DNA from: a virus
Direction: 5' to 3' (one strand)
Length of the DNA: 22,240 bases
IMG/VR virus record: IMGVR_UViG_3300043446_003330
Span: 1 to 22,240 of that record
Part shown: in pieces, positions 2,979-22,240 of the stretch
How the letters are laid out: every line of letters starts with the position of its first letter
Numbering within the stretch: the first letter of the stretch is position 1
Position numbers and translations under genes: made by a program
Notes under the pieces: generated by a model
Seen by the model: the letters and a program-made list of their open reading frames with translations, nothing else
Databases searched by the model: none
Told to the model about the DNA's origin: nothing

Positions 2979-4046
2979 TTAATAATCTAATTTAACCTTA
3001 ATTACCAATTCTCTATCAAAAGACTTGCGTACTGGTTTGCTTAATTTAGCAACTGCCAATAATTGTTGGTCATCATCGTATAATCCAACAGACGTAACAT
3101 ATGTCTGTGGATTTAATTTCATCGAATCATATTTTAACTTTGCAGAACTTCCCGAATAGAAACTTGGATTGTTTGAATAATTGTATTCACCATTAAACAA
3201 TCTTACAAAGTAATATGTTGAAGAAATTGCCTCACTCGTTCTACCTTGAAAAGCATTTGAAGATGTATTATATGATATAGCACCACTAATGGATGTAAAC
3301 ATACGAAGTGCGTTTGTTTCACCACTAGCAGTTGCTGGTGTACGTTTTGTATTAAACGAAGCACTAGCATCTAATGCCTTTCCATTCAATAAAATTATAC
3401 CGTTATCGGGATAAAAAAGACCCCACGGCGTTGTATCTGCTGTGTAAATTCCATTTGCTATCGAACCACTACGGATGTTATAAACTCTACCACCTTGCTG
3501 AGCAAACTCAGTTGTTGATGCAGTTGAATCATCGATAAGTGTTATTATATCAGCTCCAGTAGAAATAGAAGCAGAACCTGCCGCATCTAATTTACCGATA
3601 GAAAGTTGCCAAGTCTTTGTGTCAACTTTATCTTTGAATCTAGCACGATTAACATTAACAACGTATATGTGTTCGGAACTTTCACCATTTTCAAATGTAA
3701 ATGAAGTTTGGTTTGCTGGTAGAAGTAATTGACGGTATTGTGTATAAACTGCTTTTGTTGGGTAATCATAAAGATTTTGGTCAGCTGAACCTGTTGAGGA
3801 TCCACTACCAATCAAATCACCATAAGCAACACTAAACTGTGCCTCAGCTCCTTGTATATTCGATTGACTATTGTAAACTTCGTAGTAATAACGTTTTTGG
3901 TTTGCAGATTGTGCAGAACTTGTAAATACACTAATCAACGAAGCCTGACTTTTTGACCATAGAGGGGCTGTAACGATTTCCTTTTGATTCGGAGATACAT
4001 CACTTCCATCTATAAACGGTTTAAATGTTGGTGTTAAATCTGCCAT
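2979..4046 (-). CDS. Virion structural protein, second paralog of the triplicated module
   Basis: A 355-aa protein made almost entirely (residues about 35-355) of the module shared with both neighbours. Landmarks are YYYEVYNSQS, FSVAYGDLIGSGSS, TKAVYTQYRQLLL, HIYVVNVNRARFKDKVD, YFVRLFNGEYNYSNNP and TYVTSVGLYDDDQQLLAVAK. It is the most diverged of the three: the TGSNIAGDNA stretch found in the other two is replaced by an Ala/Thr-rich one (ATASGETNALRMF). It is rich in Ser, Gly, Thr and Tyr and has no Cys that I can see, unlike the 940-aa paralog. Four bases separate it from the stop of the 367-aa gene, so it is in the same transcript. No strong SD is visible before the ATG at 4046. Role inferred: tail or baseplate surface protein. 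The family is conserved but functionally unassigned as far as I know. Confidence 0.8.
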   Translation of the reverse strand: MADLTPTFKPFIDGSDVSPNQKEIVTAPLWSKSQASLISVFTSSAQSANQKRYYYEVYNSQSNIQGAEAQFSVAYGDLIGSGSSTGSADQNLYDYPTKAVYTQYRQLLLPANQTSFTFENGESSEHIYVVNVNRARFKDKVDTKTWQLSIGKLDAAGSASISTGADIITLIDDSTASTTEFAQQGGRVYNIRSGSIANGIYTADTTPWGLFYPDNGIILLNGKALDASASFNTKRTPATASGETNALRMFTSISGAISYNTSSNAFQGRTSEAISSTYYFVRLFNGEYNYSNNPSFYSGSSAKLKYDSMKLNPQTYVTSVGLYDDDQQLLAVAKLSKPVRKSFDRELVIKVKLDY

Positions 4047-4050
4047 AGTA

Positions 4051-5154
4051 TTAATACTCTAATTTTACAGTAATTGATAATTCGCCACTAAAAGATTTTT
4101 GTATTGGTTGACTTAATTTTGCAACCGCTAATAATTCATTTGAATCGTTATACAAACCAACTGATGTTATGTATGTTAATGGTTCAAATTTAAATGTTGT
4201 ATCAAACAACTTGTTTTGGTCTGCCGGATTGGAAGATGAACTTACATATGTTGGGTTGTTAGAATAATTGAATTCATCATTGTAAACCCGAACAAAGTAA
4301 AAATCTTGTTCTTTAATATCTACGGCACGAGCGGTAAATCCAGATGAGTTTATTAAAGCAGAACCACTTATCGATTTAAATAACTTCATTGCATTATCAC
4401 CGGCAATATTACTTCCGGTTACAGTATTGAAACTTGCAGAAGCATTCAATGAAGCGGCGTCTACAATGATAGTACCCAAATCAGGATAAACCAATCCATA
4501 ATAATGTGGATTCGTTGGGTTATAAATTCCACCTTCGATTGTACCACTTACAAGTGCTCTAACATTTGATGGAACACCACCGTAACCAAGTGTATCGGTT
4601 GCATCACCACTATCATCTATAAGAGTAATTATTTTATTTGAAGATGATATAGCAACATTACTTCCTGTGTAAACACTATTTCCATATGCTTTTCCATTTA
4701 ATTCGGCTATCGAAATTTCAAAATTACCTGGATCTAATTTGTCTCCAACTTTAACTCTATCAAAATTGATAACATAAAAATCATCTATTTCTGTTGAAGT
4801 TGAATCTTTGTGTTTGAAAGTTGTTTCATTTGGATCCAAACAAAGTAGTCTGTACTGCGAATAAATTGCTCGTGTAGGAGTATCACTTGTTTCCCCACCA
4901 GAATTTAACGAACCAGAACCACTTATGTGTGCATAAGCAACAGAAAATACAGATTGGTCATCACAAGCAGAAGAAGCCGAAGACCAAACTTGATAGTAAT
5001 ATTGTTTAGATGCAGTATTTTGTGTTGAACTTGTGTAAAAAGTAAGCAATTCACCTGTTCCGTCAGCCCAAAGGCCGCGAGTAAAAATTATTTTTTCGGT
5101 TAAATCTTTTGCTCGTTCTATACTTTTATACACATTTGCTTTATTGATAGCCAT
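4051..5154 (-). CDS. Virion structural protein, first paralog of the triplicated module
   Basis: A 367-aa protein. After about 32 N-terminal residues it consists of the shared module: TASKQYYYQVWSSASS, FSVAYAHISGSGS, TPTRAIYSQYRLLCLDP, DPGNFEISIAELNG, VTGSNIAGDNAMKL, YSNNPTYVSSSSNP and TSVGLYNDSNELLAVAKLSQP. Large blocks match the C-terminal third of the 940-aa protein nearly residue for residue. The ATG at 5154 has a clear SD (AAAAGGGAT), and the 38-bp gap before it holds GATAAATA, one mismatch from a T4 late promoter. It is therefore likely to be translated efficiently in its own right. There is no enzymatic motif, signal peptide or membrane segment. I infer a particle surface role from its position downstream of the baseplate wedge genes and the Ser/Gly/Tyr-rich, beta-prone composition. 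Exact function is unknown. Confidence 0.8.
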   Translation of the reverse strand: MAINKANVYKSIERAKDLTEKIIFTRGLWADGTGELLTFYTSSTQNTASKQYYYQVWSSASSACDDQSVFSVAYAHISGSGSLNSGGETSDTPTRAIYSQYRLLCLDPNETTFKHKDSTSTEIDDFYVINFDRVKVGDKLDPGNFEISIAELNGKAYGNSVYTGSNVAISSSNKIITLIDDSGDATDTLGYGGVPSNVRALVSGTIEGGIYNPTNPHYYGLVYPDLGTIIVDAASLNASASFNTVTGSNIAGDNAMKLFKSISGSALINSSGFTARAVDIKEQDFYFVRVYNDEFNYSNNPTYVSSSSNPADQNKLFDTTFKFEPLTYITSVGLYNDSNELLAVAKLSQPIQKSFSGELSITVKLEY

Positions 5155-11104: not shown

Positions 11105-12267
11105 CTTGTAACCTTAAAATAATAGTTGTTATCGAAGACTTGAACGTTATTTCCTCCGTCAGTTTCTGTTTTTACCACTATACGATAAAATCTTTCAGGT
11201 TGGAATGAATCCATCCATAAATTGAAATAACTACTTGTACCGTCACAACTTATTTTTGAGCCGGTATAATTGAATGGGAGTATTACCTCATCGGTATGAG
11301 CATCTCTTACCTCATAATAAGACGATGATGGTAAATAATAATTTTTAGTGTAATACGATTGAGTAGTGTATTGTTTTTGTGGGAATCTTTGATTTGCATA
11401 GATTCTTATCTTTGCTTTTTCGCTTTCCGAATAATACTTCTTTAGTTTTACATTTATAAGAAGATCATCAGGATTTACTGGTGATAAACTTCCAGTTGAA
11501 AATGTTGAATCATCCCAAACTACATGAAGTCTTGGAACATATATTGTATTACTATCTGTACTGAAGAATTTTAGACTTCTAAGATTATCGTATGAAGCTT
11601 CAATATCATTACTGAATTTTAAGATTAGTCCATCGTTTTCAAATCTACCTGATCCAGTTATCCATTTTTTTACGATTTGGGTTACGTCCATGTAAACGTC
11701 GGAAGTTTGGAATGAGAATGATTGTGTACATTCTACATTATCAAAATCCCACCATGTTCCACCACCTTCTGTTGTGAAATAAGAAGATGTTACATTAGCT
11801 GATATAGATCCAAATATTAAATTCGCATCAACCCATGTTTGAGAAATCATATCCCATTCATAACTTGATGTTAAAGGTGGTATGTCCCATTCTGTTCCGT
11901 TTGTTTTTGAGAATCTATATTTCCAAGAAACGCCATCGGTTGTTATCGGTTTATTGTAGTATTTTCCAGTTCCATTTGTCCAAGAAGAACTTAAAGGATA
12001 AGCATAAACTTTATATTCCTGCGGTATTTCTCTTACTTCTGCCGTTCTTAATTCCAAATAATACTTTGCATTTGAAGATATTTTTCCAGAATTTACTTTA
12101 CTTTCGATGTCAGAAACATCAAACTTCATTACAACTCTACTGTTATAACGAGAGGAAGACCCAACTGTTTGATGAGAAATTTCAAGAACCTGATCTGTCC
12201 CTGTGTTAAGAGATTCAGTTCTTTCATATATCGTTGAATCGAATTTTGAATAAATCGTATGTATCAT
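11101..12267 (-). CDS. DNRLRE-type beta-sandwich baseplate/tail protein
   Basis: A 388-aa protein. Residues about 5-255 fit the DNRLRE-type domain seen in many secreted and cell-wall proteins: an N-terminal extended-strand motif (STIYERTESLNTGTDQVLEI), then SRVVMKFDVSDIESKV, AKYYLELRTAEV, YKVYAYPLSSSW and the closing MDVTQIVKKWITGSG..NDGLILKFS and LKFFSTDSNTIYVPRLHVVW. Residues about 270-388 form a second beta region (YYLPSSSYYEVRDAHTDEV, ERFYRIVVKTE). Known: DNRLRE-like folds are carbohydrate-binding-like beta sandwiches, and close relatives occur, from memory, in aquatic T4-like phages as virion proteins. Inferred: a wedge or peripheral baseplate component, possibly with a binding surface. 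The start overlaps the gp6 stop (ATGA), with GAGGG 8 nt upstream. It has no obvious T4 counterpart. Confidence 0.7.
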   Translation of the reverse strand: MIHTIYSKFDSTIYERTESLNTGTDQVLEISHQTVGSSSRYNSRVVMKFDVSDIESKVNSGKISSNAKYYLELRTAEVREIPQEYKVYAYPLSSSWTNGTGKYYNKPITTDGVSWKYRFSKTNGTEWDIPPLTSSYEWDMISQTWVDANLIFGSISANVTSSYFTTEGGGTWWDFDNVECTQSFSFQTSDVYMDVTQIVKKWITGSGRFENDGLILKFSNDIEASYDNLRSLKFFSTDSNTIYVPRLHVVWDDSTFSTGSLSPVNPDDLLINVKLKKYYSESEKAKIRIYANQRFPQKQYTTQSYYTKNYYLPSSSYYEVRDAHTDEVILPFNYTGSKISCDGTSSYFNLWMDSFQPERFYRIVVKTETDGGNNVQVFDNNYYFKVTR

Positions 12268-14162
12268 CCAAATGCCCTCACTCTACCGATGATGTCATTA
12301 TCAGGATATTTTATTTCAAAAATTGACGGGTCAAGAGATGGAAATATAATTCCATCTTTTGTTGCATTTTGAATATCGTATGCGTGTTTTGAATACCCTA
12401 ATGTTGTATCATATAAATTAGTTATTTTAACATCAACTACTGTTTGTACTCCTTCAACTTTATCTAATTCGGTGAAAATATTACTAATAACAATTGGTTG
12501 GTTTATTTGCCATTTCTTTATATCAAAGTATTGTTTTAGTTTATCTATACACCTCAAAATAACTTGATTACCATTTTGGTCAGGTAATGTTATAATATCA
12601 AACTCCAATCCAATATTGATAATATAAGCATCTTTTATGTTGATTGCATCTGTCAATATTCTGTGATAGTTTAAGTATGTTTTTAAATTTTCTTTTGTTG
12701 CGTCATTTATAGTTGTGAGTTTATTATTTCCATCATATCCCAAAACATAGAAATTTAAAGCAAGATCATTCTGTATTCTGTCACTATTGAATACAGAATC
12801 ATTTGTTAATTGAGTATCTTTAGTGATATATGCTTTTGCAATAGAACCATATTTTTGCGGCATACTATAAGCACGTATAATATAATCTTCTTTTGTTACA
12901 GCACGATTCTGTGAAGCAAAGTAAGCAAGTGCATTTTGACGTATTTCGTTTATGTCTTCTTGTGTTTTACCACCAGTAGCTGGTTCTGGATTTATTACTG
13001 CTAAACTACTAATACATTGTGTGTATAAATCGGAATCTAATCCTGTTTCATCGATTAAAAGAGACCTCGATATAATTCTAGTTACGGTTTCACTTGGAAC
13101 ATTATCTTGTACGCCACCACCAGTTGTATAGTATAGTGTAATGTCTGTATTATTTGGTGCTAATCCGTATGTTTTAGTGTACAAGAAATTTGAAGGATCA
13201 ATATCAGCTGAGGTTGAAGACTCTATACCCGATAAAGAATTTCCTACTAAATCTGGATTAGGTATAAGTAATTCATCATCTAAATCAGAAACGCCGGCAC
13301 CAAATTGTATTTCAAATACATTTTCACTCGTCTGTCTTGAAATAAATCTTCTTGAAATCTTACGAAGTTTTAAAAGATATGGTGTTTCTGTTCTGTGATT
13401 ACTAAGTTGTCTATCATTTCTTGAAATATTTGGAGTTGGTTCAAAGATAGTATCTTGTGCCAAATAAGGAACATGATACCATTTATTTCCATCGGAATCA
13501 ATTCCATACAAAATTTCAATTAAATTTGGAACATTTTCAAGACTTATTTTATCGTATGGTTTTGGATCTTTAAAAGAAAAGAGTTTTGATTGTATAACAC
13601 CAGATATTGCGTTTGTTTGTTTTCTTAATAGCCAAAATGTTACTTCACCTGTAATGTCATCTATTTCATATGGTGTTACTTCTGTTGGATCGAAAGAACT
13701 ACTGAATTTAAAATCAAGATAATCGATAGTTCTGAATTCAGTTGTGTTATTATTTGTTTCGGCAGCAACTACCATTCCTGGTTCGATAGCAAAAGTATAT
13801 GAATAATCAGGGACTATCTCACTACCAACTGTTTTAGAAGGAACAATTTGAAACACATCTAATTTTACATTAGAAGCAATACTATTTTTTGGTTTATATC
13901 CAAGAGATTGAGCAATATTTAAAATATTTTGTCTTTCGGATGCTTGTAATACAAGGGATTCTTGTAAAGTTACATCTGTGTAGTATGACAAAACGTCACC
14001 CACATATGCAGCCATTTCCAAAAACATCATACCAGGAGATGTTTCATTAAAATCTTGGTATGTATTTGGAAAATAATTTTTTGCAAAATCTATAAGATTC
14101 TGCTTCAGAGAAGCAAAATCTCTCGATAAATAACGAATATCTTTCTTTACTAAATCAGCCAT
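12264..14162 (-). CDS. 6: gp6-like baseplate wedge protein (baseplate J family)
   Basis: A 632-aa protein, close to the length of T4 gp6 (660 aa). The N-terminus is characteristic: DIRYLSRDFASLKQNLIDFA, NETSPGMMFLEMAAYVGDVL and SYYTDVTLQESLVLQASERQ, then ILNIAQSLGYKPKNSIAS. A later block (QFGAGVSD) is typical of baseplate J proteins, followed by TGGKTQEDINEIRQNALAYF and AVTKEDYIIRAYSMP. Known: gp6 forms the ring that joins neighbouring wedges around the hub and takes part in the conformational switch at sheath contraction. The gene follows gp25 with an 8-bp overlap and has GAGG 9 nt before its ATG. The order gp25-gp6 is the same as in T4. No truncation or missing segment is apparent. Confidence 0.92.
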   Translation of the reverse strand: MADLVKKDIRYLSRDFASLKQNLIDFAKNYFPNTYQDFNETSPGMMFLEMAAYVGDVLSYYTDVTLQESLVLQASERQNILNIAQSLGYKPKNSIASNVKLDVFQIVPSKTVGSEIVPDYSYTFAIEPGMVVAAETNNNTTEFRTIDYLDFKFSSSFDPTEVTPYEIDDITGEVTFWLLRKQTNAISGVIQSKLFSFKDPKPYDKISLENVPNLIEILYGIDSDGNKWYHVPYLAQDTIFEPTPNISRNDRQLSNHRTETPYLLKLRKISRRFISRQTSENVFEIQFGAGVSDLDDELLIPNPDLVGNSLSGIESSTSADIDPSNFLYTKTYGLAPNNTDITLYYTTGGGVQDNVPSETVTRIISRSLLIDETGLDSDLYTQCISSLAVINPEPATGGKTQEDINEIRQNALAYFASQNRAVTKEDYIIRAYSMPQKYGSIAKAYITKDTQLTNDSVFNSDRIQNDLALNFYVLGYDGNNKLTTINDATKENLKTYLNYHRILTDAINIKDAYIINIGLEFDIITLPDQNGNQVILRCIDKLKQYFDIKKWQINQPIVISNIFTELDKVEGVQTVVDVKITNLYDTTLGYSKHAYDIQNATKDGIIFPSLDPSIFEIKYPDNDIIGRVRAFG

Positions 14163-14664
14163 TGTAAACTGCCTCTTCGATGGTCAAATTGCCTGTGTCT
14201 GATATAAATATCTGAATCGGCAAATATATGTTTGTTCCGCTAACATATACCTTCAAAGTTATACCAACAGCATGACTTGGATCGTCCACTCTACCGTCTT
14301 CACCCATGTTTATATTTACATCCAATTCTTCTATTAAAAGAAAAGGCATCCACGTTCCTATTGCATCGGTTATTTCATTTTTCAAACTAGTTTGAAACTC
14401 TTCTTCGCTACTGATATTTTCAAATAATATTAATCTGAGTTGTGTTCCAAACTCAGGTAACATATATCTCTCACCCTTTGCAGTTAGAAGTAGGTTTTTC
14501 AAGTTAGAATAAACCTGATTTCTATTGGTGTAACTTTGAAAAAATACACCATTAGGATTATTAAATGGTATAGTTACACCAATTGGTTTTGCAAATCTTG
14601 TATCAACTTTTTGTTCAGTTGGTACTACAATGTTCTTTCTTCTGAAAAATGAAGCTCCACTCAA
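14155..14664 (-). CDS. 25: gp25-like baseplate wedge protein (GPW/gp25 family), TTG start
   Basis: A 169-aa protein against 132 aa for T4 gp25; the excess is mostly N-terminal. The family core is clear: RNQVYSNLKNLLLTAKGERY, MLPEFGTQLRLILFENIS, EEEFQTSLKNEITDAIGTWM and PFLLIEELDV. It includes the conserved E-F-G-(T/S) and L-F-E features. Known: gp25 docks on the gp6/gp7 wedge core and helps start sheath assembly. The reading frame begins with TTG at 14664, not ATG. A good SD (GGGAG at 14672-14676, 7-nt spacing) precedes it, and the next in-frame ATG is about 67 codons downstream inside the conserved core, so TTG is the likely start. It overlaps gp6 by 8 bp. Confidence 0.93.
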   Translation of the reverse strand: MSGASFFRRKNIVVPTEQKVDTRFAKPIGVTIPFNNPNGVFFQSYTNRNQVYSNLKNLLLTAKGERYMLPEFGTQLRLILFENISSEEEFQTSLKNEITDAIGTWMPFLLIEELDVNINMGEDGRVDDPSHAVGITLKVYVSGTNIYLPIQIFISDTGNLTIEEAVYNG

Positions 14665-14676
14665 TTTTTATCTCCC
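14665..14676 (-). promoter_or_regulatory. Ribosome binding site that fixes the TTG start of gp25
   Basis: On the minus strand GGGAG (14672-14676) is followed by a 7-nt A/T-rich spacer and then TTG. This is one of the clearer SD sequences in the window and supports the non-ATG start. Confidence 0.7.
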
Positions 14677-15093
14677 TTTTTTCTCATTTATTTTTGCCAT
14701 CAATGCAGAATAGTCACGGGTAAGTGCCTGTGCAACTTCAGGTGCTACTACATTTGGATCTACACCCCGTGGCATTGCTCCCATATTATTTGAAAAGGCA
14801 TTCAATGAATCAGTTGTAAATCGCATTTCCATGTCATCACCTTCAGTAATTAAACTTTGTTCCATAGAACGACGAGTTTCATCAAGTAAAGCTTGAATAC
14901 TTGTTAAGCCTGTTTTTGATTGAGGTGGTGTTTTCTTTGTAACTTTGTTTGCTTCCTTTACAAGATTCATACCATGTGATAAAACCTTACGGTCATCTTT
15001 CTTTTGATTTTCGGTAAGTTTCTTGTCAAGTGCATATTCTATTTCCTCACGAATAATAGAACGAATTTGTTTTAAAAAATTTGATGTGTCCAT
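14668..15093 (-). CDS. Small charged helical protein of the baseplate operon, function unknown
   Basis: A 141-aa protein I do not recognise by name. Residues 1-50 are helical and charged (FLKQIRSIIREEIEYALDKK), the type of start seen in small phage virion-associated proteins. The middle is basic and polar. Residues about 85-141 hold MEMRFTTDSLNAFS, a Gly/Pro-containing turn (MGAMPRGVDPNVV) and the helix PEVAQALTRDYSALMAKINE. It has no Cys and no membrane segment. The ATG at 15093 has GGAG 5 nt upstream, and an exact TATAAATA lies about 46 bp upstream. It sits between the tail-associated hydrolase and gp25, so a hub or wedge accessory role is likely but unproven. I considered T4 gp53, which maps nearby in T4 and is about 196 aa, but see no LysM-like feature to support that. 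Confidence 0.65.
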   Translation of the reverse strand: MDTSNFLKQIRSIIREEIEYALDKKLTENQKKDDRKVLSHGMNLVKEANKVTKKTPPQSKTGLTSIQALLDETRRSMEQSLITEGDDMEMRFTTDSLNAFSNNMGAMPRGVDPNVVAPEVAQALTRDYSALMAKINEKKGR

Positions 15094-15103
15094 GATAACT
15101 CCG

Positions 15104-16537
15104 TTATGTAATTTGTTTGAGTATTGTTGACAAACTTGTATTTATATTTTTTTTGTTTTTATTCACCGAGTCAAGATATGTACTAATTGTTGGTGTAATA
15201 TTATATTTTGCATTTAGTCTATTTGTAGATCTATTTACATCACCTGTAATTTTTCCAAATACAACATAATCGTTTTTACCACAAAATTTTGAAATACTTT
15301 GGGCTTTGACAGCAATTTGAGTTCCATTTCTATCATTAGCCCCACTAGTATTTCCACCGATAGTAATCATATTTCCACTATTACTGAGATAAACACACGT
15401 TTCTACGTGGGTACTGGTACCAACTGATACCGTTGCCATACCCCAATCTAAACCCAATAAAAAATTTAAAAGTTTTTGACCCGCAGGTAATAATTCTCCT
15501 TTTTCTTTGAAGTGATAACCTTTTACAAATATCGCTCCAACACCGTTTGAATTATAATTTTCTGGATTATTAGGCAACCAAGAATTTTGAAAAGCTATTT
15601 TTCCGTCTTTATTATTTTTTATTGTTGCTGGTGCATTAACTAAGCCTTTTCCTGCTAGATTTCTATGGTAAACGTCAACATTAACGGTATTTCCTCCTGA
15701 TCTAGATAATCCTGCACGATTTGTTAAAAAATCTGTCCAAGCACCACACCAATACGGCTCATCTGCCCATGAAGGATTTTGTTGAAAAATTCCAATAGAA
15801 GTTCCAGTACCACGATCATATACCATACTATTATTAAGTATCATCATATGCTGTTCTGTATTTTCTTCTGCAACATAAGGTACTTTATCATTAAAAATAC
15901 CTACTTGTGGAACATTCATAGCAATTATTACATCCCAAACTGATTTTATAGATATTCCTTTTGTTAAAGTATTCCAATCTGCTCCAAATTTATATTTAAC
16001 AAATCCTTTTATAGATTGTATTGCAGTATTTTTTTCGTTTTCTTTTTTTCCGTCCTTTGTAGTTGGTCCAACTACCGCACGATATGCCCAATACGAATTA
16101 TCGTTTACTTTACCTTGTTCAATATAAGAAGTGACACGTACACCAGTTCCAACGGGTGATGAATTTATTTTTAAATCCTTTACAACTTCTTGTGTTTGAG
16201 CTCCACTATTATCAACTGTTGCTGGTGCAGATTCTGGACTATTTAAGGATTTTTCTTTAGCATCCTCTTTTTTTAATTCCGCCTCTGGTTGTGCAGATGA
16301 TGTAGTCTGTGTCTGTGGAGGTTCTGATTTAGTTGTTCCATCTTGTTCTCTTTTCTTTTTTTCGTCTTCTATTTTTTTTATATTATCGAGAACATCACCA
16401 AAATCATCGGTTCGTATATCATCAACAATTAAAGATTCATCTTTATCTTCTTCATATACAAAATCCAAAAGTTTTACTTTTTCTTCCTCAGTTACATCCG
16501 GATTTTCGGTTTCTATATTTGCAATTAATAATGGCAT
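15104..16537 (-). CDS. Probable tail-associated peptidoglycan hydrolase, CHAP/NlpC-like cysteine peptidase
   Basis: A 477-aa protein next to the spike gene. Residues 1-130 are acidic, then Ser/Thr/Gln/Pro/Lys-rich and probably disordered. Residues about 240-425 resemble the CHAP/NlpC-P60 class: a predicted nucleophile in PYWCGAWTDFL (Cys near residue 264), a predicted His in STHVETCVYLS (near residue 377), then GNMITIGGNTSG, which resembles the TIEGNT-type strand after the CHAP His, and a closing strand KNDYVVFGKI. The Cys-His spacing (about 113) is longer than in compact CHAP domains, apparently because of an insert. Known: such enzymes cleave amide or peptide bonds in peptidoglycan. Inferred: it makes the local cell-wall opening during DNA injection, replacing the lysozyme domain that T4 carries inside gp5. 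No signal peptide is seen, as expected for a virion protein. The SD is weak (GTGAG). A peptidase relative lacking activity cannot be excluded. Confidence 0.62.
   Translation of the reverse strand: MPLLIANIETENPDVTEEEKVKLLDFVYEEDKDESLIVDDIRTDDFGDVLDNIKKIEDEKKKREQDGTTKSEPPQTQTTSSAQPEAELKKEDAKEKSLNSPESAPATVDNSGAQTQEVVKDLKINSSPVGTGVRVTSYIEQGKVNDNSYWAYRAVVGPTTKDGKKENEKNTAIQSIKGFVKYKFGADWNTLTKGISIKSVWDVIIAMNVPQVGIFNDKVPYVAEENTEQHMMILNNSMVYDRGTGTSIGIFQQNPSWADEPYWCGAWTDFLTNRAGLSRSGGNTVNVDVYHRNLAGKGLVNAPATIKNNKDGKIAFQNSWLPNNPENYNSNGVGAIFVKGYHFKEKGELLPAGQKLLNFLLGLDWGMATVSVGTSTHVETCVYLSNSGNMITIGGNTSGANDRNGTQIAVKAQSISKFCGKNDYVVFGKITGDVNRSTNRLNAKYNITPTISTYLDSVNKNKKNINTSLSTILKQIT
15139..15146 (-). promoter_or_regulatory. 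Candidate T4-type late promoter, exact TATAAATA
   Basis: The minus strand reads TATAAATA exactly, the -10 element recognised by T4 gp55-containing polymerase; no -35 element is needed in that system. It lies in the last codons of the hydrolase gene, about 46 bp upstream of the 141-aa gene, and would give a leader of about 40 nt containing its GGAG. It could drive the 141-aa gene-gp25-gp6 run. It is the only exact match I noticed on the coding strand. A few matches are expected by chance in 22 kb this AT-rich, and I noticed three on the opposite strand. Confidence 0.38.
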
Positions 16538-16541
16538 ACTA

Positions 16542-17906
16542 TTAACTCACATTAACTTCAGGAGTTTGTGGAACGAAAGTAGGATTAGGGTTAGGTTTCG
16601 CATCTCCAGCTTGATTATTCGTACCTTCTGTATATTGAGTATTATTTCCTTGCTTTCTTTCTGTTGCCGCATCTTTATCTCGTTGAGAAGCTCCTCCTGG
16701 ATTTTCATTTAGGAAAACAAGATTACTAGGTAGTTCACGTAATTTCTGTCTTAATCCTTTTAAATCAGATTTAACCATAAAAAAATCAGATGCATTTATA
16801 GGCACACCCGATGGTCCAACACCAGTTGGGTGTGTTTCTTTTGTTATGTGTTCTATTAATTTATCTATTGTATCACAAAGATTACCCAACCACTCTAAAG
16901 TCCTGTCTCCTAACAATACAGGCGAAACAGCATTTATACCCAAACTAATTTTATTACTTTCAACTTCAACTACTTGTTTTGCATCAAGTGAAATTGCCTT
17001 TTCAGAAGAAAGTCCTATACCTTCTTTTGAAAAAGCAATCAATTCTTGTTTACGAGCGTTAAATATAATCCTATCTGATGCTATAATAACTTGATTGCCA
17101 GCAAATTTATTTTTGTTAAATAAATCTACACTCTTATCTTTTATAGAAGGAGTGTAAGTTGATGCTGGTGTGAATTTTACTTCTTGTCCAGATGCCAACC
17201 ATATAGAGGCATCATCTTCATCTGGATTCTCAAGAATAAATTCGTTGAATGGTTTTTTCTTTGGATTTGTTCCATTAGAAATAATAAGAATTGGATTGCC
17301 TGTGTCACCCAATCCTTTCTTCCAAATAGGTTTTGTAGGATAGTTTCTTTTCTCATTTACGGTTGAACCAAAACGAATTGATTGTCCCCATCTGCCTTCG
17401 AGAATAATATCACCCGAATAAGGTTGAATGGGATAGACATCGAGACGTTCTGGAAAGGCAGGGTCGATAGTAGTAGATACTTGAAGTCTGCTTTTTACCT
17501 TGTTGGATATACCATCTTGGGCATTTTCTCTTGAATTTTTATCTTTAGTGCTGGTGTCTTTTAGGTATTCCGTTATACCTGGTAATCCATTGTGATGAAC
17601 AGAACTTTGTACCGATACAGGATTTGTGTAGTAATATTCTTGTGATACTCTTCCAGCACTATTATATGCAGTAGGTGCCTTCATAAGTACAACAACTTCA
17701 CCGGCAACTGGTATATTTTTTAGATTTACATCTAATGCCCTTGCTTGGATTTTATCGTTAGCTGCTTGTGAACCATAAGGACCAACTAGTTTACAGATAA
17801 TAGTGTATAATTTTTCTTTATCCTTTCCACTAAAATCTACATCAACAACTTCAGCAGTTACGAGTTCATAATCTTGTCCGGCTAATATCGTCTTTGATGG
17901 ATTCAT
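16542..17906 (-). CDS. 5: gp5-like baseplate hub/central spike protein without lysozyme domain
   Basis: A 454-aa protein. Residues about 10-95 form an OB-fold-like beta domain as at the N-terminus of T4 gp5 (LVTAEVVDVDF, KLYTIICKLVGPYG, IPVAGEVVVLMKAP). Residues about 155-215 hold the hub-type block VYPIQPYSGDIILEGRWGQS followed by IRFGST. Residues about 230-330 are short repeating beta strands (IWLASGQEVKFTP, NQVIIASDRIIFNARKQ, AISLDAKQVVEVESNKISLG) consistent with a spike beta-helix, and the conserved HPTGVGPSGVPIN follows. The C-terminus is Asn/Gln/Pro-rich. Known: gp5 trimers form the membrane-piercing spike at the tail tip. T4 gp5 carries a lysozyme domain in the middle; none is seen here, and the next gene encodes a cysteine hydrolase. 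The ATG at 17906 has GAGGAG 10 nt upstream and lies inside the preceding gene (41-bp overlap). Confidence 0.82.
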   Translation of the reverse strand: MNPSKTILAGQDYELVTAEVVDVDFSGKDKEKLYTIICKLVGPYGSQAANDKIQARALDVNLKNIPVAGEVVVLMKAPTAYNSAGRVSQEYYYTNPVSVQSSVHHNGLPGITEYLKDTSTKDKNSRENAQDGISNKVKSRLQVSTTIDPAFPERLDVYPIQPYSGDIILEGRWGQSIRFGSTVNEKRNYPTKPIWKKGLGDTGNPILIISNGTNPKKKPFNEFILENPDEDDASIWLASGQEVKFTPASTYTPSIKDKSVDLFNKNKFAGNQVIIASDRIIFNARKQELIAFSKEGIGLSSEKAISLDAKQVVEVESNKISLGINAVSPVLLGDRTLEWLGNLCDTIDKLIEHITKETHPTGVGPSGVPINASDFFMVKSDLKGLRQKLRELPSNLVFLNENPGGASQRDKDAATERKQGNNTQYTEGTNNQAGDAKPNPNPTFVPQTPEVNVS

Positions 17907-19335: not shown

Positions 19336-20046
19336 TTATCCTCTCCCCAAGCTTGTTTTGTTATCTAGACTAGCGGCATCCGATGTTTTTCGAATGTTGT
19401 TAGGTTCTATAATTGAATCAATTACACCTAATTCCAACGCTTCTTGTGGTGAAATATAATAATCTTTTATGGTTATATCTCTCCAAAATTTCTTATCCTT
19501 ATTTGAATTATCACTCATAATCGTAACAAGGATTTCTTCTAACTTCTCCATGTGTTGTACGTTAGCCTTCATATCCGAAGACTTACCATAAATACCCGAA
19601 GACATTTCATGGAACATGATTGTACTATTCTTTGAAGCTGCACGAATTCCTGTTCCTGAACATAAGATAAGTGCTGCAGCAGACATTGCTCTTCCTCGGC
19701 AAATCGTATTAACTTTAACATTCAAACTTTGTATGAAGTCAATAATACCTAATGCCTCATAAACATCCCCACCGTCAGAATTCAAAATAATGTTTATAGG
19801 ATCATTCTTTTTCTCTTCTGGACGCATATGTAATATGCCTCGTATTCTTAATATAAGGTCATATAAAGTACCGTCCATAATATCGCCAAATATCAATACA
19901 CTTGAAGTTTCATAGTCAAATCCATAATCTATTTGAGTAAGTGCTTCTTTCCATTTAAGTGGCAATTCATCAGAAGACTGAGAATCTTTGATAACTGTTC
20001 TTTTTTGTTCTAATTCGTCATCATACATATTATTCATAGCTCTCAT
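19336..20046 (-). CDS. clpP: ClpP-like serine protease
   Basis: A 236-aa member of the ClpP/S14 family. The core runs from FGDIMDGTLYDLILRIRGIL through NIILNSDGGDVYEALGIIDF to GVIDSIIEP. The catalytic triad is intact by alignment from memory: Ser in GRAMSAAAL (near residue 122), His in MFHEMS (near 146) and Asp in KDYYISPQEAL (near 195). The N-terminus (about 40 residues) and C-terminus (about 25 polar residues) extend beyond the core. Known: ClpP forms tetradecameric chambers fed by ClpX/A unfoldases. Phage-encoded versions may act on host or phage proteins, and some phages use ClpP-fold enzymes as prohead proteases. The ATG at 20046 overlaps the previous stop (ATGA), but its AAAGG touches the codon. 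The ATG at 20037 has AAAGG at 9 nt and may be the true start (233 aa). Confidence 0.88.
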   Translation of the reverse strand: MRAMNNMYDDELEQKRTVIKDSQSSDELPLKWKEALTQIDYGFDYETSSVLIFGDIMDGTLYDLILRIRGILHMRPEEKKNDPINIILNSDGGDVYEALGIIDFIQSLNVKVNTICRGRAMSAAALILCSGTGIRAASKNSTIMFHEMSSGIYGKSSDMKANVQHMEKLEEILVTIMSDNSNKDKKFWRDITIKDYYISPQEALELGVIDSIIEPNNIRKTSDAASLDNKTSLGRG

Positions 20047-20424: not shown

Positions 20425-21543
20425 TCATCTAATAAATGGTCGTGTTGGTTTCCACGGATTTTCTATAACCACATTTGGTTTTGTTTCATCGTAGAATTCA
20501 TCAATGTTATTTGTATTTTCATCTTCGCTCAATATACTAACTTCTTCGTTGTTTTCCAACTTTTTATTTTTCTTTGTTCTCTTTGATTTTATTACCACCC
20601 TATCTAAAGGTGGATTATCTACCGATTGTGTTACAGAGTCAGTTATTTGATCATTTATAGCGGATGGGAAACTTTGGACAGGTTCTTCATACCCGATTCC
20701 AATCTCTTGTCCAATTTCACTCAAGTCATCCAATGATTCATTTTGTTTTTCTTTTGAACTCAAATGATTCGCTGCGATAACCAAACTAACCGCGAGTGGG
20801 TCAAATACAATAACAAGAATAAGAATAAACCAATTAACCACATTATCCATCGGTATGCCGGTTATTCTACTCAAGTAAAGAAGTGGACCTAATTCTGATG
20901 AGAATGATTCATTTGTTACTGTAAGTTTTGTTTGGTCTATCTTTGCAATAGAATCTGAAAGTGCAAACGATTTTTGAGTCAAGGTAGAAATATCGTTGTT
21001 TAGATTTTCCGATGACTTATCAATAGATGTTATATTTTTTGATAGACCATTTGTACCACGTTTCTGTGTTAGTTGTTGTGTGTAAGCATTTTGTTGTGAT
21101 ACACGAATTTGGTCGAGTGATTTTAGACGATTATTTTTATCTTCTATTGCTTTATCAACTTGTGCTTTTTGTTCACCAAATAATTTCTTCTTTTGGTCAA
21201 GTAAAACCATTTCGTTTTGTGCTTTATAGATTACCTTTGCGGTTTCCTGATATGAGTTCGTTAGATACCCATAAACACCAATAGAAGTAATTGCCATAAG
21301 GACTACGGCGGCAGAAAGAAGATAGGCTTTGAAAAGAAGACGGAGTGTTTTAAAGTGGTCGTGTAGGAATGTTACAACAACAAGTTTGGAAAGTTCTAAC
21401 ATTGCTGCCATACCAACAACAGACCAAGAACCACCTGAAAATAATTTGGATATACCGAATACAGAATAATAACCTGAAAATGTAGCTAATCCAATCGCAC
21501 AAAACCAAATAAGGTTTTTAAGGTTGAATAGTTTAGATAACAT
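20425..21543 (-). CDS. Four-helix membrane protein with a large coiled-coil loop
   Basis: A 372-aa protein from the chosen start. Three hydrophobic helices lie near the N-terminus (around LIWFCAIGLATFSGYYSVFG, VVGMAAMLELSKLVVVTFL and AYLLSAAVVLMAITSIGVYG). A region of about 130 residues that looks like coiled coil follows (KAQNEMVLLDQKKKLFGEQK through NNDISTLTQK). A fourth helix (NWFILILVIVFDPLAVSLVI) and a polar tail with a basic patch (KSKRTKKNKK) end the protein. The frame is open to 21612, but the ATG at 21543 (MLSKLFNLKNL) is preferred: GGGAAA lies 5 nt upstream, it overlaps the UVDE stop by only 11 bp, and the longer version adds a polar stretch without a good SD. It is not a holin-sized protein. 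The architecture (membrane ends, coiled-coil domain on one side) suggests a scaffold or sensor in the host membrane. Function is unknown to me. Confidence 0.72.
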   Translation of the reverse strand: MLSKLFNLKNLIWFCAIGLATFSGYYSVFGISKLFSGGSWSVVGMAAMLELSKLVVVTFLHDHFKTLRLLFKAYLLSAAVVLMAITSIGVYGYLTNSYQETAKVIYKAQNEMVLLDQKKKLFGEQKAQVDKAIEDKNNRLKSLDQIRVSQQNAYTQQLTQKRGTNGLSKNITSIDKSSENLNNDISTLTQKSFALSDSIAKIDQTKLTVTNESFSSELGPLLYLSRITGIPMDNVVNWFILILVIVFDPLAVSLVIAANHLSSKEKQNESLDDLSEIGQEIGIGYEEPVQSFPSAINDQITDSVTQSVDNPPLDRVVIKSKRTKKNKKLENNEEVSILSEDENTNNIDEFYDETKPNVVIENPWKPTRPFIR

Positions 21544-22240
21544 TAGCATTTCCCATTGTTTTACGATATTCGAGTAGTGCCAGTTCTTTTGCTTTACATT
21601 CCAACATAACATCTACGTCATATCCATAAGTATTTATTTCTTCCAAAATGTAGTCTGCATGAGCTTGTGGCTTATCCTTTGGATTACCAGATTCCTTTGG
21701 TTTGGATGACGAGTAATGAACTACGGGGATGATACTATCACGCCAAGTTGACATAGCAAGTTCAAGAGCTTCTTGTTCAGTTAAATCACCTGTGTTGAAT
21801 GTATGATGGTGGTAATCAAACACAATTGGAATACCGATACGTTCATGGATATACATCAAGTCTTTTACACTATACATACTTGCTTTATCATCGTTTTCAA
21901 CCGTAAGACGAGATTTGACAGAGTGTGACAATTTGTCATAGTTGTCACAAAATCTCTGCATACTTGCAATTTTATCACCGTATGTTCCGTTACAATGAAT
22001 GTTTATCTTGTTGTATGGTGAGTTATAGAGTCCTAATAAATCAAGTACCTTACCGTGATTTTCTAGGTCGATAATAGTGTTCTGAACTACTTTCTCATTA
22101 GGTGAACAAAGTACGTTAAACGGGCCAGGGTGACACCCTAAACGAACGCCATTGGATTTTGCGTACTCACCAGTACGTTTCATTACCTCTGCAATTTCTT
22201 CGATGTTAGGGAGGTTTTCTATACCATATTCAGATGCCCA
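21533..22240 (-). CDS. uvsE: UV DNA damage endonuclease (UVDE), N-terminus cut off by window edge
   Basis: The frame is open from 22240 to the stop at 21533 (235 codons visible; the true start is outside). It is a TIM-barrel UVDE family enzyme, which nicks DNA 5' of UV photoproducts to start excision repair. The metal-ligand set I expect from the family is present: His in RLGCHPGPF, His in ENHGKVLDL, His in KINIHCNGTYGDK, Glu in LTVENDD, Asp and His in VFDYHHHTFN, His in VVHYSSSK, His in QAHADYI and Glu in MLECKAKE. The Lys that, as I recall, is modified two residues before the VVHYSS His in Thermus UVDE appears to be Val here. Phage UVDE probably repairs phage DNA or keeps a sunlit host productive (inference). 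It overlaps the start of the membrane protein gene by 11 bp. Confidence 0.9.
   Translation of the reverse strand, partial: WASEYGIENLPNIEEIAEVMKRTGEYAKSNGVRLGCHPGPFNVLCSPNEKVVQNTIIDLENHGKVLDLLGLYNSPYNKINIHCNGTYGDKIASMQRFCDNYDKLSHSVKSRLTVENDDKASMYSVKDLMYIHERIGIPIVFDYHHHTFNTGDLTEQEALELAMSTWRDSIIPVVHYSSSKPKESGNPKDKPQAHADYILEEINTYGYDVDVMLECKAKELALLEYRKTMGNANVI

Follow-up and report, generated by a model that had tools for sequence, protein, structure and literature searches.

A proposed slot for exchangeable enzymes beside the spike gene of a viral baseplate operon, with a putative CHAP-like hydrolase and a candidate docking peptide

In phage T4, the lysozyme, a glycosidase, lies inside the gp5 spike polypeptide. 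In the viral record analysed here (IMG/VR IMGVR_UViG_3300043446_003330; its 22,240 bases are called the window), a baseplate operon is carried on the minus strand, and a spike-type gene is followed by a separate gene for a putative cell-wall hydrolase. A sequence-only reading had described this as a spike and a hydrolase divided between two genes, with a change of enzyme class. The question is what kind of arrangement this locus represents. The order of the operon is a 128-aa protein, the 454-aa spike-type protein, a 477-aa protein, a 141-aa protein, gp25, a gp6-like wedge protein and further tail proteins. Both open reading frames in question were confirmed in position and strand, as was the Cys264 codon, and a gap of 4 bases separates the spike gene from the 477-aa gene. 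The latter sits among tail and baseplate genes, with the spike on one side and gp25/gp6 on the other.

16542..17906, minus strand: 454-aa spike-type protein (candidate gp5-like); open reading frame with OB-like N-terminal strands, beta repeats, a helical region and a disordered C-tail
15104..16537, minus strand: 477-aa putative cell-wall hydrolase (the slot enzyme), recognised from the open reading frame and its relatives
14668..15093, minus strand: conserved 141-aa protein, the downstream slot edge in most relatives, coming after slot enzymes of differing class
14155..14664, minus strand: gp25 baseplate wedge protein (context; Pfam GPW_gp25, E 6.5e-9)
12264..14162, minus strand: gp6-like baseplate wedge protein (context; PHROG baseplate wedge subunit, E 1e-18)

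The identity of the spike rests on its position, on weak matches of its homologues to DUF2345 (5 of 33, best E 0.0027) and to a baseplate PHROG (3 of 33, best E 0.0026), and on OB-like strands at its N-terminus, where OB-fold matches were obtained from a fold search with a low-confidence AlphaFold model (33 sequences). The comparison of T4 gp5 with the spike profile gave no significant match. With position and weak matches as its basis, the label ‘gp5-like’ is thus a reasonable reading rather than proven homology. No large helical insert was seen in the same low-confidence model, and no lysozyme family was found by Pfam and PHROGs in the spike alone or in its 33 homologues. A T4-type lysozyme hidden in the spike is therefore rejected, and the earlier statement that the spike lacks this domain stands. 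Spike homologues are common, being present in 57 viral loci; among isolated phages, they occur in Microcystis phage Mel-JY01 (62%) and Flavobacterium phage immuto (29%). In four of the loci (L017, L019, L021 and L023), the spike genes encode 767-854 aa with long C-terminal extensions, and the L023 spike contains collagen-like repeats.

In P2- and Mu-like phages, the gp5-type spike usually carries no lysozyme. Separate spike and hydrolase genes are ordinary and the T4 fusion is the special case, so the split itself is not the remarkable feature that it had been taken for. The window resembles T4 gp5 in having a spike-type protein in a baseplate operon and a putative muralytic function at the tail tip. 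It differs in that the enzyme has its own gene and a CHAP-like domain, and in that comparing the spike with gp5 gave no significant match in sequence.

What, then, is the 477-aa protein? It gave no direct match in Pfam, NCBIfam, PHROG or the PDB, and tblastn found no relatives of the enzyme among 50,697 phage records. Its close relatives are few (L002-L006, 55-100% identity), and two divergent ones, L149 and L150 (31-34% identity), were reached through L015. The third codon position varies most in this gene (0.45 vs 0.17-0.28); codon-position differences were used as dN/dS was saturated. An AlphaFold model of the enzyme built from four sequences had a mean pLDDT of 37, and its fold search gave no match below E 2. 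Owing to the low model confidence, the fold searches with the enzyme and spike models are used as evidence for the OB-like matches of the spike N-terminus and for nothing further. The residues on which the assignment depends are as follows.

15248..15775, minus strand: residues 255-430, predicted CHAP/NlpC-like catalytic domain, interrupted by an insertion that lies between Cys and His (aligned by hhalign with two CHAP profiles; column permutations as controls)
15746..15748, minus strand: C264 codon, predicted nucleophile in WADEPxWCG; invariant in 6/6 and aligned to the CHAP Cys
15407..15409, minus strand: H377 codon, predicted catalytic histidine; invariant and aligned to the CHAP His in the HVG motif
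15350..15352, minus strand: N396 codon in GGN, predicted third residue; invariant and aligned to the CHAP GGN/EGN
15833..16150, minus strand: residues 130-235, conserved family-specific region ahead of the catalytic domain (63-80% identity in close relatives)

With hhalign, residues 220-440 scored 33.2 against a three-sequence CHAP profile (L021, L035 and L056, each past the Pfam CHAP cut-off), compared with a mean of 13.7 and a maximum of 25.5 for 300 column permutations, and 9.7-16.0 for decoy families. Against a 51-sequence TIGR02594/CHAP profile, made from L052 and domains collected from bacterial genomes, the score was 26.5, a narrow margin above its 300 permutations (mean 13.4, maximum 25.2); decoys from five other protein families reached 9.5-15.1. 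With both profiles, the real score exceeded all 300 permutations, and C264, H377 and GGN were aligned. C264, H377 and N396 are invariant in 6/6 relatives, down to 31% identity, and the six window-type sequences also share the surrounding W257-A-D-E-P-x-W-C264-G and G394-G-N396-T, as well as H342. The CHAP/NlpC-like Cys-His arrangement reported earlier for the adjoining gene is, therefore, beyond chance.

The profile comparison that had been suggested against these families thus succeeded with the two purpose-built profiles, while no curated CHAP or TIGR02594 model in Pfam or NCBIfam was matched above its cut-off by the 477-aa protein. Its relative L006 reached E 0.0089 and 16.3 bits against TIGR02594, for which the cut-off is 70.55. 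The C-terminal part likely belongs to the CHAP/TIGR02594 (NlpC/P60) superfamily as a remote member; since no library names the protein, the assignment is at the superfamily level and falls short of close family membership. It is like the TIGR02594/CHAP/NlpC-P60 cysteine hydrolases in that the WC, HV and GGN motifs align. Unlike them, it stays below every curated cut-off and has an extra conserved N-terminal region (residues 130-235, with no Pfam match, where W150, R153 and others are invariant in six family members). It also has a Cys-to-His spacing of 113 residues, the result of an insertion whose length in L149 is even greater. By analogy, a CHAP-type Cys-His arrangement implies amide or peptide bond cleavage, and to that extent the peptide or amide cut proposed earlier would be supported.

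The locus becomes clearer when the relatives of the spike are considered. The genes after the spike were read in all of them, and representatives were scanned for domains. A putative enzyme gene lies downstream of the spike in 57/57 viral loci, and its class could be assigned in 43. By locus, and with counts that are non-independent as many loci are near-identical contigs, the slot holds the window-type CHAP-like enzyme (7), GH19 (12), GH19+M15 (14), GH19+NAGPA (2), GH19+CHAP (1), CHAP (4), M15/VanY (3) or a weakly NAGPA-like protein (14). Two of the three M15/VanY loci, L057 and L058, additionally encode Phage_lysozyme2+NAGPA. At least seven architectures are represented. On the downstream side, the slot mostly ends at the 141-aa gene; some lineages have additional genes that separate the spike from the slot enzyme. 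The GH19 assignment is firm: the slot GH19 profile matched bacterial and phage GH19-type structures at E 2e-33 to 1e-18, the phage GH19-type endolysin structures being at 1e-18 to 1e-24, and P0003 lies past the Pfam GH19 cut-off.

The ‘change of enzyme class’ is, accordingly, too narrow a description, as relatives with the same spike have GH19, Phage_lysozyme2, M15/VanY, CHAP and NAGPA domains in this position. The idea of one glycosidase-to-peptidase switch relative to T4 was rejected, since both classes are present in the same slot. The GH19, M15 and NAGPA slot proteins, including WWT39505.1 of Mel-JY01, share the locus, the gene order and, in many cases, a tail peptide with the window enzyme, while their catalytic domains are unrelated to its own. 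A few of these loci deserve mention on their own account. In L058 (2018-6494), three consecutive hydrolase genes follow the spike, namely M15, M15/VanY-like and Phage_lysozyme2+NAGPA. The Mel-JY01 protein at the gp25 position (L066, 15080-15583; WWT39507.1) is publicly labelled ‘tail lysozyme’, a legacy and potentially misleading name; the slot GH19 of this phage is the likelier lysin. In immuto, gp115 (L067, 12906-14021) occupies the slot position and is annotated as ‘DNA repair ATPase RecN’. Its sequence looks like a coiled-coil, and no enzyme domain is evident in it; in this distant relative, the slot enzyme may thus have been lost or relocated.

The shared part of these proteins lies in the N-terminal tail.

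16391..16537, minus strand: residues 1-49, conserved N-terminal peptide common to GH19 slot proteins (candidate docking tag; blastp, conserved island)
16388..16429, minus strand: residues 37-50, core motif IVDDIRTDDFGDVL (D-x-R-x-D-x-F-x-D), from a profile of seven slot proteins
16274..16390, minus strand: residues 50-88, variable low-complexity linker (identity drop, composition, repeats)
16223..16270, minus strand: residues 90-105, second motif KEDAKEKSLNSPESAP; K90, K94, K96, P101 and A104 invariant in six family members

The tail had been described as a long disordered N-terminus. This holds for residues 50-88, which consist to 85% of K/R/D/E/S/T/P/Q/N/G and whose identity to L008/L009 is 37-39%, compared with 59-65% in the preceding part; residues 1-49 and ~89-129, in contrast, are conserved islands. 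The linkers of several slot proteins are built of short tandem repeats (L012, 7664-7787; TSG in L150; PVVTP in L149), which could allow their length to change rapidly. Residues 1-49 share 45% identity with the first 49 residues of the GH19 protein L011 (blastp, E 1.6e-9) and are also similar to the slot proteins of L012 and L066 (Mel-JY01), whereas the catalytic parts of the 477-aa protein and these GH19 proteins gave no BLAST match. A 14-residue motif profile was trained on seven slot proteins and then run on the remaining ones. For the resulting D-x-R-x-D-x-[FW]-x-D pattern, 11 held-out slot proteins (L020, L026, L028, L018, L053, L041, L039, L052, L019, L023 and L058b) scored 9.5-25.2, and the best of 329 controls, which were other proteins from the same loci, scored 8.9. 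The 11 cover GH19, GH19+M15, GH19+CHAP, Phage_lysozyme2+NAGPA and one NAGPA-like protein. L021 (CHAP) was borderline at 7.7, and the profile scan found the motif missing or degraded in L030-L038, L017, L034, L035, L047 and L044. The second motif, as a regular expression, was found in 17/47 slot-region proteins and 1/351 controls. Ordinary common descent explains some of the motif sharing, as several motif-bearing proteins have GH19 in common with each other and with the training set; the strongest cross-class cases are, for this reason, the window type against GH19, L019 (NAGPA-like) and L058b (Phage_lysozyme2+NAGPA).

As the relatives keep the spike and place differing enzymes at the same position, often behind a similar floppy front, a plug-in enzyme slot at the tail tip is suggested. 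The account that we hold to be probable is that of a virion-associated lysin slot with an exchangeable catalytic domain and a conserved docking peptide. The 477-aa protein would be the virion-associated peptidoglycan hydrolase that fills this slot of the baseplate operon. Its N-terminal peptide (residues 1-49, with the second motif at ~90-105) would dock on the central hub/spike or on a neighbouring baseplate protein, while the flexible linker would keep the catalytic domain loose and let it reach the wall. After penetration of the outer membrane by the spike, the CHAP-like Cys264/His377/Asn396 domain would cleave the wall at amide or peptide bonds. In related phages, the front end would often be kept and the catalytic part exchanged. 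The tethering to the hub, which the sequence-only reading had tentatively attributed to the tail, gains from a conserved peptide that is common to enzymes of other classes; the docking itself we infer.

The slot enzyme might instead be an endolysin for the release of progeny, its gene merely lying within the baseplate operon and its disordered N-terminus having a regulatory or export role. In G004, a contig of 177 kb that encodes a window-type enzyme, no GH19 homologue, GH24, Amidase_2, CHAP, M15_4 or M23 was found elsewhere, so in this lineage the enzyme might be the endolysin or serve both roles; the search is a weak one, however, as the window enzyme is itself invisible to Pfam and the contigs are possibly incomplete. 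Mel-JY01 argues the other way: its slot holds a GH19 of 343 aa with a tail, and a second GH19, of 200 aa and lacking the tail, is encoded elsewhere. The pair fits a virion lysin for entry together with an endolysin for release. Moreover, whatever the enzyme class, the slot has the spike gene on one side and the baseplate wedge genes on the other, and the common front peptide has no obvious use for a free lysin. We regard a release function as unlikely.

Another view would make the 477-aa protein a structural component of the baseplate whose CHAP-like fold is degenerate and inactive, given the long Cys-His insertion, the extra conserved region 130-235 and the want of any family above cut-off. 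The invariance of C264, H377 and N396 down to 31% identity speaks against decay, as do the plainly catalytic families found at the same locus in relatives, and we consider this quite improbable. A further proposal places the target in the capsule or exopolysaccharide rather than in peptidoglycan and makes the slot a general surface-degrading module. Several slot proteins do carry NAGPA (phosphodiester glycosidase) domains, which need not act on peptidoglycan. However, CHAP, M15/VanY, GH19 and Phage_lysozyme2 domains are, as a rule, peptidoglycan-active in phages, and a CHAP-like fold implies amide bonds; such a target appears very improbable for the slot enzyme.

Within the virion-associated lysin slot, a more specific role of the N-terminal peptide can be advanced tentatively. 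It may be a dedicated loading tag of the contractile tail, a short motif by which the hub/spike would recognise unrelated wall-degrading enzymes and have them mounted on the same tail tip, like the T6SS RIX/MIX and eCIS signals. In T6SS, RIX/MIX effectors carry a conserved N-terminal loading element before variable catalytic domains (PMC10435454). Similarly, conserved N-terminal signal peptides precede the exchangeable catalytic parts of eCIS payloads (PMC11495950), and conserved N-terminal anchors precede those of phage tailspikes (PMC12692247). The likeness to all three is one of arrangement, with no sequence relationship claimed. The Anabaena myophage A-1(L) has lysozyme, endoglucanase and peptidase domains fused to its hub (PMC10966104); it is like the present system in having wall-degrading activities on a myophage tail, and unlike it in that here a separate, exchangeable protein would provide them. 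The open-access literature searched yielded no account of tail lysins with such a tag. If the tag is real, a phage lineage could alter the chemistry with which it breaches the wall, exchanging the enzyme and keeping the mounting peptide, and the matching of entry enzyme to host wall would be directly testable at one locus. The tag would also be a handle for locating unannotated tail lysins beside spike genes.

Some other genes of the window were noted in passing. A ClpP-type serine protease is encoded near the baseplate genes (19336-20046, minus strand; Pfam E 7.9e-32; PHROG head maturation protease). The translation of 21533-22183 (minus strand) resembles, as judged by eye, a UvdE-type endonuclease. 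Three consecutive genes on the minus strand (145-2967, 2979-4046 and 4051-5154) have a common C-terminal region (NYSNNP...YVTSVGLYND...LLAIAKLSKPI...KIRL), which suggests that they are tandem paralogous tail or fibre proteins.
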